A program made the translations under genes and the position numbers. From Seleniivibrio woodruffii (lineage in GTDB: Bacteria; Chrysiogenota; Deferribacteres; Deferribacterales; Geovibrionaceae): 64,000 bases of DNA. Where the stretch lies: the NCBI RefSeq assembly GCF_029267515.1, contig NZ_JAJUIS010000002.1, positions 124,001 through 188,000 on the forward strand, read 5' to 3'. This document shows positions 53,479 through 57,302 of this stretch, piece by piece (within the stretch, counting starts at the first letter, position 1; each line of letters starts with the position of its first letter). The notes below the pieces were generated by a model. The model saw nothing but the letters and a program-made list of their open reading frames with translations, had not been told where the DNA came from and did not search any database.

Positions 53479-53924
53479 AATGTCCGTTTCATTGCTATTT
53501 CGTCGCAGTCGGGAAACTTAGCACATTTCAGGCAGTCAGACCATATTTTTTTTGGGAGCTGTTCTTTTTCTATCTCGACAAAGCCGAGCTTGCCGAAAAA
53601 TCCCGGCTGATAAGTCAGCAGAAATGCGTCAGTTATACCGACTTCCCTTGCCATCTGCATCGAGCTTTCAACAACGGCGGTACCTATGCCCTTTTTCGTG
53701 CTGTACTGGCTCACGGCGACGGAGCGTATCTCCGCCAGATTCTCCCATGTCGGGTGCATTGCGCTGCATCCGAGTATCTCGCCGCCTTCATCCCAGACGA
53801 CAAATTCAAGTATCTTTTCGTATATTTCGTTTATGCTGACAGGGAGCATCAGCCCCACTTTCGCATGGGTATTTACAAGGTTCTGGATGTTCTTCGCATC
53901 CGCCATAACGGCTTTTCTTATCAT
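53475..53924 (-). CDS. GNAT acetyltransferase, short ArgA-like
   Basis: A 149-residue acetyltransferase. Seen: acetyl-CoA loop YSTKKGIGTAVVESSM (residues about 78-93), YQPGFFGKLGFVEIEKEQLPKKIWSDC (in part) and the Cys-rich end KCAKFPDCDEIAM. The latter is typical of the stand-alone N-acetylglutamate synthases of several anaerobes (short ArgA), the first step of arginine synthesis. Without arg genes nearby this is a family-based inference. Confidence 0.78.
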   Translation of the reverse strand: MIRKAVMADAKNIQNLVNTHAKVGLMLPVSINEIYEKILEFVVWDEGGEILGCSAMHPTWENLAEIRSVAVSQYSTKKGIGTAVVESSMQMAREVGITDAFLLTYQPGFFGKLGFVEIEKEQLPKKIWSDCLKCAKFPDCDEIAMKRTL

Positions 53925-54316
53925 TTCACGGTTTCCTTGATGAACAGTCTGTAAATCCTTACTGCGGTATCTTTGTCGGGGAGCAGCTCAACGTGTTTCT
54001 TTGCGCTGAAATTGATCTTAATGTTTTCTGCGTTGAACTGCGTGATTGTTATGTAAATTACAGCGTTGTTTGTCCGCGCTTCAATTTTACCGTCTGCAAT
54101 GCTTGAAAGGGTTATCTGTGCGTTCTCGCTGTTGAATATGCCTATAAGCACTTCAAAAGCCTGTTCCTTGGGCATTGTGAAAACGTCTGTAACGGAATCG
54201 TTTGTTGTTGTGTAAACAGCTCCGCCCGCAGCGCCGCCGAATATAAGGGGTGCCGGAACACAGCTATACATAACAAGAGCCGCTGCCGCAACGATAATAA
54301 GTTTATGTAATTTCAT
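53921..54316 (-). CDS. DUF3568 family lipoprotein-like protein
   Basis: A 131-residue exported protein. Seen: a signal peptide ending in an imperfect lipobox (LVMYSC, Cys19), then VPAPLIFGGAAGGAVYTTTND, common in DUF3568 proteins, and a small alpha/beta domain (KEQAFEVLIGIFNSENAQIT). Function unknown. First gene of the long minus-strand run; GAGGA precedes the ATG. A possible promoter (TTGAAA, 15 bp, TATAAA) upstream has a short spacer. Confidence 0.75.
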   Translation of the reverse strand: MKLHKLIIVAAAALVMYSCVPAPLIFGGAAGGAVYTTTNDSVTDVFTMPKEQAFEVLIGIFNSENAQITLSSIADGKIEARTNNAVIYITITQFNAENIKINFSAKKHVELLPDKDTAVRIYRLFIKETVK

Positions 54317-54385: not shown

Positions 54386-54415
54386 TTGACAAGATAAAAT
54401 GGCAGGGGCTATTAT
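54386..54415 (+). promoter_or_regulatory. Promoter of pyrR-pyrB-pyrC
   Basis: TTGACA, 18 bp, TATTAT; predicted start near 54422, leaving a leader of about 115 nt that contains a leader peptide and a terminator. Confidence 0.78.
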
Positions 54416-54429
54416 CTCAAGGGTGAATG

Positions 54430-54468
54430 ATGACAGAACGGATTAACTTTTTAAACATATCTTTATGA
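54430..54468 (+). CDS. Putative pyr leader peptide (12 codons)
   Basis: ATG ACA GAA CGG ... TGA encodes MTERINFLNISL; an ATG directly before it (54427) would add one Met. AAGGG at 54419-54423 is a usable ribosome-binding site 6 nt from the second ATG. The stop codon ends 7 nt before the terminator stem, so a ribosome at the stop would cover the stem's left arm. The second half of the coding sequence is U-rich, which could pause RNA polymerase when UTP is low. Confidence 0.5.
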   Translation: MTERINFLNISL

Positions 54469-54475
54469 GTACACG

Positions 54476-54515
54476 GCCTTTTAGCCGCCACTGGCGGTTG
54501 AAAGGCTTTTTTTTT
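54476..54515 (+). terminator. Attenuator (intrinsic terminator) upstream of pyrR
   Basis: A 14-bp stem (54476-54489 with 54493-54506, including three G-U pairs), loop ACT and nine T. It lies after the pyr promoter and before the pyrR start, so it must be bypassed for expression. No complementary upstream strand that would form a competing antiterminator was found. Confidence 0.88.
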
Positions 54516-54535
54516 GAATAAACGGAGGCTGAAAA

Positions 54536-55072
54536 ATGTCCGCGAAAGAGATTATGAACAAAGAAGAGATGGCGAGAACCCTGAACAGGATGGTGTTTCA
54601 GATTCTTGAAGCCATCAAAAGCGAAGACGGCTTCTGTCTGGTGGGAATCAGACGCGGCGGCGCTGTGCTTGCAAAGCGCATGGCTGATATTCTGGCAAAG
54701 GAGGGAAAAAAGGATATCAAAATCGGATATCTGGACATCACCCTTTACAGAGATGACCTCACCAGTATACACGACTATCCGGTTCTGCAGAGCACCGAGA
54801 TAGATTTTGACATTACTGGCAGAAACATCGTGCTGGTAGACGACGTTATCTACACCGGAAGAACCACCAGAGCAGCTCTTGACGCTCTCATAGACTACGG
54901 AAGACCAAAAAAGATCCTGCTTGCGGCGTTCATCGACAGAGGACACAGGGAGTTGCCCATTCAGCCTGATTTCACAGGCAGAACAGTGCCTACATCCCGC
55001 AGTGAAATAGTTGATGTTCAGCTTGAAGAACAAGCCGGATGTGATTGTATATTAATAAATAAAAAAGCCTAG
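54536..55072 (+). CDS. pyrR: PyrR bifunctional regulator / uracil phosphoribosyltransferase
   Basis: A 178-residue PRTase-fold protein. Seen: the PRPP loop NIVLVDDVIYTGRTTRA (residues about 97-113), IRRGGAVLAKRM and the C-terminal FIDRGHRELPIQPDFTGRTVPTSRSE (in part), diagnostic of PyrR. In Gram-positive bacteria PyrR binds a leader RNA loop; in many Gram-negative bacteria it does not. No PyrR-binding loop was seen here. GGAGG precedes the ATG; pyrB follows after 18 bp. Confidence 0.95.
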   Translation: MSAKEIMNKEEMARTLNRMVFQILEAIKSEDGFCLVGIRRGGAVLAKRMADILAKEGKKDIKIGYLDITLYRDDLTSIHDYPVLQSTEIDFDITGRNIVLVDDVIYTGRTTRAALDALIDYGRPKKILLAAFIDRGHRELPIQPDFTGRTVPTSRSEIVDVQLEEQAGCDCILINKKA

Positions 55073-55090: not shown

Positions 55091-56041
55091 ATGGCTTACA
55101 AAAGAAAAGACCTTTTGGGGATGAAGGACTTGACCAAAGAGGAGATACTTTATCTTCTGGAAACAGCTCAGAAATTCACTGAAATCAACGAGCGCGACGT
55201 TAAAAAAGTACCCACTCTGAAAGGGAAAACGGTGATAAACCTGTTTTTTGAGCCTTCCACAAGAACAAGAACCTCTTTCGAGATCGCCGGAAAAAGGCTC
55301 TCCGCCGATACCATAAACTTCACTGCGTCCTCCAGCAGTACGACAAAGGGCGAAACCCTTATAGATACTGTGAAAAATATGGAGGCAATGAAATCGGACA
55401 TCTTCGTTGTGCGCCACTCCTACTCCGGAGCGGTTAAGTACATCGCGGAACATACAGACGCAAAAATCATCAACGCCGGCGACGGACTTAACGAACACCC
55501 GACGCAGGCGCTTCTGGATATGCTCACCATCAGACAGAGCAAAGGCAGGCTTGAAGGGATTGAAGTCGCAATAATCGGAGATATCACCCATTCCCGCGTC
55601 GCACGCTCTGATGTGTGGGCTATGACAAAGCTGGGCGTTAACGTCCGTCTTTTCGGTCCCACGACAATGATACCCAAACACTCACAGGTATTCGGCTGCC
55701 GAGTATGCAAATCTATGAACGAAGCTGTCGAAGGCGCCGACGTTATTATAATGCTGCGTATTCAGAGAGAACGTCAGGGTAAGCTGCTTATCCCCTCTAC
55801 AAAGGAATACGCAAAATATTTCGGTCTCACAAAAGACAAACTGGCTCTGGCAAAACCAGATGCGCTGGTAATGCACCCCGGCCCCATCAACCGCGGCGTT
55901 GAGCTTATGAGCAACGTTGCCGACGGCGACAATTCAGGAGTTCTGAAACAGGTGACAAACGGCGTTGCCGTGCGTATGGCTGCTCTTTACATTCTTGGCA
56001 TAGGAAACAACAAGGGAGGAATTGATGAAAACGCTTCTTAA
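55091..56041 (+). CDS. pyrB: Aspartate carbamoyltransferase catalytic subunit
   Basis: A 316-residue enzyme that joins carbamoyl phosphate and aspartate. Seen: [18 protein letters not shown] (carbamoyl-phosphate site, residues about 50-68), [34 protein letters not shown] (in part HPTQ) and [11 protein letters not shown]. No pyrI regulatory subunit follows. It overlaps pyrC by 17 nt; AAGGAG precedes the ATG. Confidence 0.97.
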
Positions 56042-57302
56042 AAACTGCAAAATTGTCAATCATGATAAGGTCACAGAGGGCAATGTCCTGATAGACGGCG
56101 AAATCATAGCCTCCGTTACGGCACATGCAGACGAAAAAGCGGATAAGGTCATCGACTGCAAAGGGAAATATGCAGTTCCCGGTCTGATAGATCTCCACGT
56201 TCATTTCCGTGACCCCGGACTGGAATACAAAGAGGACATCACTTCCGGCGCGAAAGCTGCCGTTGCAGGAGGCGTTACGGCCGTATGCCCCATGGCGAAC
56301 ACAAAGCCAGTGAACGACAACAGGATAGTGACTGAATACATGATAAGAAAGGCTCAGTCTGACGGACTCATAGACCTTTTCCCAATCGGAGCAATGACAA
56401 AAGGTATGGAGGGCGAAGAACTTACAGAAATGGGCGATATGACCGAGGGCGGAGCCATAGGCTTTTCGGACGACGGCAAACCCGTTTGCAGTGCAGAAGT
56501 TTTCCGCCGCGCCGCCGAATACGCATCGCAGTTCGGTTCTTTCGTGATAAGCCACGCAGAGGACAAGAGCCTTGCCGGAGCGGGAGTTATCCACGAAGGC
56601 GAAGTTTCCGCCATTACAGGGCTTAAAGGCATTCCTTCAGAATGTGAGGAGGTCATGGTCGCCCGTGATATCCTGATGTCAAAGCTGACAGGCGCCCATG
56701 TCCACATCTGCCATATCAGCTCCAAAGGTACACTTGAACTGATCAAATGGGCTAAATCCATGGGGTATAACGTAACTTGCGAAGTTACCCCCCATCATTT
56801 CACATTGACCGAGCAGGAACTTCTGACCTACGATACCAACTGCAAAATGAACCCTCCCCTGCGTGCACAGGAGGACGTTGACGCGCTTATCGAAGGGCTT
56901 AGAAACGGCGACATCGACTGCATCGTTACCGACCACGCCCCACATCATCCCGATGAAAAGGCGCAGGAGTTCGACCTTGCACCGTTCGGCATAACAGGAC
57001 TTCAGACGATGCTCCCCCTCTCTCTCGCACTTGTTGAAAAAGGTGTGATAGATATGCCTGCTTTCGTAAGGCTTACGTCTTATAATCCTGCTAAACTCAT
57101 CAAAAAGACGGACAGAGGCGAGATAGCCGTCGGCAAACTGGCTGACATCGCCATTGTTGATCCGGAACTGGAGTACGTTTTTGACCTTACCCTTAACAAA
57201 TCAAAATCAGTCAATACTCCGTACATGGGTAAAAAACTGAAAGGCGCTGCGCTTTACACGATTAAAAGCGGAAAGGTAGTTTTCGAATTTCCTATGAACT
57301 GA
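56025..57302 (+). CDS. pyrC: Dihydroorotase (class I)
   Basis: A 425-residue zinc amidohydrolase. Seen: [20 protein letters not shown] (HxH, residues about 54-73), [49 protein letters not shown] and [12 protein letters not shown]. Active-type class I, with all metal ligands present, unlike the inactive PyrC' partner of some ATCases. The start is ATG 56025 (GGAGG 5 nt upstream). A terminator follows 10 bp after the stop. Confidence 0.97.

Follow-up and report, generated by a model that had tools for sequence, protein, structure and literature searches.

The leader in front of the pyrR-pyrB-pyrC operon of Seleniivibrio woodruffii points to ribosome-coupled attenuation that operates without the canonical PyrR loop, and we put the probability of this reading at about 0.8. 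The case was built from sequence, namely from the architecture of the leader, its conservation, the position of the leader stop codon, the unstructured leader RNA, and the lack of the loop and of the residues that accompany it. A fuller version, in which nucleotide supply would act on the attenuator via the speed of the polymerase and canonical PyrR-RNA binding would play no part, is in our judgement an even bet. PyrR usually runs such switches by binding an RNA loop.

The features of the leader and the operon in the window, that is, in the whole 64,000-nt stretch of DNA that was analysed, are collected in Table 1. The sequence-only reading had described a promoter, a 12-codon leader ORF with a ribosome-binding site, and a terminator with nine T, and all of these were recovered; it had also given the stem as 14 pairs and the gap between the leader stop codon and the stem as 7 nt, whereas the count is 15 pairs and 6 nt when the outer G-U pair is included (7 nt if it is left out). 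The hairpin (54475-54507) folds at -24.6 kcal/mol (shuffle z -6.4), and the T run (54507-54515) ends 20 nt before the pyrR start. The sole upstream gene (53921-54316, minus strand) is divergent from pyrR and runs away from the terminator, which therefore ends no other gene's transcript. This gene is lipoprotein-like, with a DUF3568 match of 19.6 bits that lies below the cut-off of 23.2, and in several relatives pyrR apparently has a similar coding sequence next to it. The leader could alternatively start at an in-frame ATG at 54427 (13 codons), a codon that is missing from the relatives L029 and L032. A transcription start 6-8 nt past the -10 box would fall inside the Shine-Dalgarno (SD) motif, so that the ribosome site of the leader ORF would lie at or beside the transcription start and the 5' UTR to the ATG at 54430 would be about 7-9 nt long. 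The encoded PyrR shares 97% identity with its counterpart in Seleniivibrio sp. S2C1195.

Table 1. Features of the pyrR leader and operon in the 64,000-nt stretch of S. woodruffii.
Feature	Position	Strand	Remarks
Sigma-70 type promoter, TTGACA-18-TATTAT	54386..54415	+	TTGACA 54386-54391, 18-nt spacer, TATTAT 54410-54415; 11/12 consensus match; relatives with the same -35/-10
SD-like GGGTGA of the leader ORF	54421..54426	+	Counted from the ATG, G at -8 in 17 and G at -7 in 14 of 19 representative leaders
Leader ORF, 12 codons + TGA (MTERINFLNISL)	54430..54468	+	ATG 54430, TGA 54466-54468; frame open to the terminator zone in 24 genomes
Intrinsic terminator	54475..54515	+	15-pair stem, 3-nt loop, nine T; found in 24/24 leader-bearing relatives
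SD motif of pyrR, CGGAGG	54523..54528	+	Read directly
pyrR, PyrR family protein	54536..55072	+	NF003549 222.6 bits, cut-off 138; Phe at B. subtilis position 22, Gln at 146
pyrB, aspartate carbamoyltransferase catalytic subunit	55091..56041	+	NF002032 413 bits, cut-off 263
pyrC, dihydroorotase	56025..57302	+	TIGR00857 442 bits, cut-off 279

In the mechanism that we propose, transcription would begin at or just upstream of the ribosome site of the 12-codon ORF. A polymerase ahead of the ribosome would allow the 15-pair hairpin and the U tract to end transcription before pyrR, while with a slow polymerase the leading ribosome, at the leader stop codon, would mask the hairpin's 5' arm, letting the polymerase proceed. 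The most likely input would be nucleotide supply through polymerase speed, following the logic of pyrBI. We infer not only the transcription start, but also that the ORF is translated, that termination takes place at the hairpin, and that the attenuator responds to pyrimidine nucleotides.

The sample comprised 50 Deferribacterota genomes, 44 of which encode PyrR at strong scores, and all 44 upstream regions were read. A promoter, an ATG, a short ORF, and a terminator precede pyrR in 24 of these 44 genomes, which belong to eight genera and to the families f1, f2, f3, f4, f5, and f7. The leader ORFs have lengths of 7-27 codons and nearly all possess an SD motif, the terminator is present in every leader (24/24), and the leader stop codon always lies between 9 nt before the stem and a position beyond it (24/24). 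This succession of SD motif, ORF, and terminator in 24 genomes, with the stop codon at or inside the terminator zone, supports the ribosome-coupled attenuation that the sequence-only reading had proposed, and the comparison of related leaders that it had recommended showed that the ORF and the stop position are kept throughout the eight genera.

Before the terminator zone the 24 leaders contain a single stop codon in the frame of the ORF; the other two frames have 50 and 17. The ORF frame is open to 9 nt or less from the stem in 23 of the 24; the exception is L026, in which the one in-frame stop that was counted terminates the ORF itself, 9 nt ahead of the stem. The relatives have a common ancestry, so these leader counts are not independent events, and the chance of an open frame was expressed as one value per genus (means of 0.27-0.72 in shuffles of each leader), which multiplied over the eight genera gave a product of 0.0034. 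When the leaders were anchored at the ATG, the SD motif, the start codon, and one promoter position were strongly conserved, and this comparison revealed no strongly conserved leader position outside promoter, SD motif, and ATG. The sequences of the leader peptides diverge widely and have no shared run of regulatory codons, which argues against amino-acid attenuation of the trp/his type.

The leader is absent from most of f7, from f6 and f8, from the outgroup f10, and from one f1 genome (L042), and this distribution suggests that the order had it ancestrally and that several lineages lost it later. In L042 (G024), direct repeats are found 330 bp upstream of pyrR, as if a repeat element had overwritten the region. 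In L048 (G037), the leader ATG is located about 7 nt past the -10 box, suggesting a leaderless mRNA for the leader ORF. Neither carA nor pyrE of the same family has such a leader in the loci read, and both were thus rejected as additional members of the attenuator.

The position of the leader stop codon can be compared with experimental results for E. coli, where termination fell from about 90% to less than 10% when a stop codon was shifted from 28 bp to 5 bp upstream of a terminator, and where the effect of the stop codon on the terminator extends to 27 nt (PMC4824070), a limit inside which all 24 leaders lie. In the same species a terminator 30 bp past the start codon retains most of its efficiency despite translation, pausing being the known exception (PMC4824070), and therefore coupling by a short ORF would require a slow or paused polymerase. 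The distance from the ATG at 54430 to the terminator stem is 45 nt, so that termination would be the default state in S. woodruffii and readthrough would occur with a slow polymerase, if the pyrBI logic applies. No pause site was identified in the leaders.

Of 20 nt in the second half of the S. woodruffii leader, 11 are U (shuffle p about 0.07), and the U-rich half described by the sequence-only reading thus exists locally, but it is confined to close relatives; the other leaders are A-rich, and nearly all 24 contain more A than U, compared with fractions of 0.17 A and 0.36 U in E. coli pyrL. A U-rich pause tract before the terminator, as in pyrBI, is therefore marginal in S. woodruffii and not conserved in the A-rich relatives, and the claim of UTP sensitivity finds no support in conserved sequence. 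The absence of an antiterminator, in turn, was confirmed. By itself the leader has a folding energy of -2.4 kcal/mol and is less stable than most shuffled sequences, 192 of 200 of which are at least as stable. The leader together with the 5' arm reaches -8.3 kcal/mol versus -24.6 for the terminator of the S. woodruffii stretch, and no antiterminator emerged from the folding.

The sequence-only reading had seen no PyrR loop in the leader and had suggested a search with Rfam. RF00515 has no match at gathering in the window, including the leader, and none in the 50 Deferribacterota genomes, and a permissive scan yielded 16.7 bits (cut-off 54, E 7.7). The positive controls, Bacillus subtilis, Thermus composti, and Lactococcus lactis, were matched, but RF00515 reached gathering in none of the Omnitrophota PyrR loops scanned, and Rfam was therefore rejected as the lone arbiter. 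Because it overlooked clear loops elsewhere, a dedicated covariance model, R1, was built; it matches 37 of 48 pyrR loci outside the Deferribacterota with up to 46 bits, 16 of these sequences having been used to build it. In the 44 Deferribacterota leaders it has no match, the best score being 13.2 bits (E 1.4). The absence of the loop is thus borne out by both models. Two weak R1 matches in the 50 genomes (23.7-23.8 bits, E about 0.03) are at chance level and were discarded. Furthermore, the SD motif begins about 5 nt past the -10 box, which leaves no room for a PyrR hairpin controlling the ribosome site of the leader. The best matches to the consensus ARUCCNGNGAGGYU in families f2 and f4 (up to 11/12, L044) fall on the base-paired 3' side of the terminator stem instead of in a loop of the PyrR type, and were regarded as coincidence. 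The terminator 3' arm GGGAGGCT (L036, L039, L044-L047, L049) resembles the PyrR recognition sequence and is paired inside the terminator.

All PyrRs from the 37 loop-bearing loci have His22 and Arg or Lys146 (B. subtilis numbering), and neither His22 nor Arg/Lys146 occurs in the 44 Deferribacterota PyrRs. In the 24 leader-bearing genomes, position 22 is occupied by Phe (21), Tyr (2), or Ser (1), and position 146 by Gln (23) or His (1). Other candidate residues of the RNA face are retained in these PyrRs, R19, H140, and R141 in all 24 and K152 in 23, and R141 is also present in 11 of 11 loop-less PyrRs of other phyla. In B. subtilis PyrR, T18, H22, and R141 are needed for RNA binding; H22 and R146 are absent from all 44 Deferribacterota PyrRs, and R141 is retained in the 24 leader-bearing genomes. 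In a PyrR tree the Deferribacterota form a clade (support 99/97), whose position next to other loop-less PyrRs has weak support (86/87). Of the 24 leader-bearing genomes, 23 encode Upp, which is absent from 14 of the 20 PyrR genomes without the leader. Therefore, PyrR is not retained simply as the only UPRTase in leader-bearing genomes, and we do not favour that explanation; the redundancy with Upp hints at a regulatory role of PyrR. In genomes that lost the attenuator, PyrR may have become the sole UPRTase.

Several known systems resemble the leader in part. With pyrBI (pyrL) and pyrE of E. coli it shares, at the sequence level, a leader ORF with a ribosome site, a leader ribosome positioned to cover the intrinsic terminator before the first gene (24/24), and the lack of an antiterminator; it differs in the length of the ORF (12 codons versus 44 in pyrL), which ends before the stem and not beyond it, in the mostly A-rich leaders, in the SD motif at the 5'-end, and in an operon that encodes PyrR. 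Attenuation by PyrR in Bacillus (RF00515) likewise involves a terminator upstream of the genes of a PyrR-encoding pyr operon, but here a leader ORF is present and the PyrR loop and antiterminator are not. Van de Casteele et al. in 1997 reportedly described a leader ORF for the pyrR-pyrB-bbc-pyrC operon of Thermus ZO5 and proposed that a translating ribosome prevents the terminator. In that system, too, a leader ORF and a terminator, in the absence of an antiterminator, are reported for a PyrR operon, as found here, and the combination of a PyrR operon with a ribosome-coupled leader was reportedly already anticipated for Thermus. The differences are that RF00515 matches in Thermus composti and in no Deferribacterota genome, that Thermus PyrR retains H22 and R146, and that R1 found no PyrR loop controlling the leader ribosome site in the Deferribacterota.

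A further counterpart was encountered in the Omnitrophota, whose pyrR leaders also consist of a promoter, an SD motif, a short leader ORF, and a terminator, followed by pyrR. They differ in the presence of a PyrR loop, a hairpin of the form CCTTT(T)AA-stem-CNGNGA-stem-AAGG with compensatory changes at 5/6 pairs of the inner stem, and in a PyrR with H22 and R/K146. The 3' arm of the loop, AAGG(AG), is the SD motif of the short leader ORF, and the terminator follows. Such loop-bearing leaders were seen at L006-L008, L010, L011, L013, L014, L017, and L074-L101. To call a PyrR-encoding operon with pyrBI-like leader control an unusual mix, as the sequence-only reading did, was thus an overstatement, since the same layout with an intact PyrR loop extends across the Omnitrophota and was reportedly proposed for Thermus ZO5.

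Other inputs to the attenuator have to be weighed. PyrR with UMP or UTP might touch the single-stranded ribosome site of the leader ORF in a non-canonical way and so block translation of the leader, whereupon the terminator would form, a Thermus-like logic without the RNA loop that we consider less likely than control by polymerase speed. Such a contact would suit an operon in which pyrR is the first gene, PyrRs that retain R19, H140, R141, and K152 and that Upp makes enzymatically redundant (23/24 leader-bearing genomes, with 14/20 leaderless PyrR genomes devoid of Upp), and the Omnitrophota, in which the PyrR loop hides the SD motif of an equivalent leader ORF. However, the Upp pattern tracks phylogeny, H22 and R146 are gone, R141 is equally found in the 11/11 loop-less PyrRs, and the leader is unstructured, without a loop and without a conserved motif past SD motif and ATG. 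Canonical PyrR attenuation with an unrecognized loop and antiterminator is scarcely credible; the operon does encode PyrR, and Rfam alone is insensitive, having overlooked the Omnitrophota loops at gathering, but R1 finds no loop, there is no room for a hairpin between the -10 box and the SD motif, and no antiterminator fold was obtained.

The leader ORF might alternatively sense ribosome supply or general translation capacity instead of pyrimidines, and the attenuator would then couple pyrimidine synthesis to growth. The conserved signals are indeed translation signals only, the leaders are not U-rich, and the peptides are without shared regulatory codons; nevertheless, this input is improbable, given that the device stands before pyrR in 24/24 cases and that neither carA nor pyrE in the family carries it. 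A different precedent is pyrC of E. coli, the translation of which is set by the choice of the transcription start. A nucleotide-dependent start that keeps or trims an SD motif at the 5'-end would set leader translation in a similar way, and the likely start inside the SD motif in S. woodruffii as well as the ATG at the expected start in L048 could be accommodated, but the sequence from the -10 box to the SD motif is unconserved and families f2-f5 have roughly 8-19 nt from the inferred start to the ATG, which makes such switching very improbable.

If ribosome-coupled attenuation without the PyrR loop is correct, annotation of a PyrR as an "attenuation protein" does not mean that it works via the known loop, and it should be noted that RF00515 overlooks loops outside its training range. 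Tentatively, the leaders of the Deferribacterales, the Omnitrophota, and the Thermus type could be arranged in a series that joins an SD-hiding PyrR loop with a bare pyrBI-like ORF, in which the Deferribacterales, without the loop and the two accompanying residues, would run the device on polymerase speed alone or would have re-wired it to a new PyrR contact. The contrast between Deferribacterales and Omnitrophota offers a natural test of what PyrR requires for RNA binding. PyrR control and ribosome-coupled attenuation of pyr genes are usually taught as alternatives in different bacteria, and an order with only the ribosome half, together with a phylum in which both halves are fused, would show passage between the two mechanisms.
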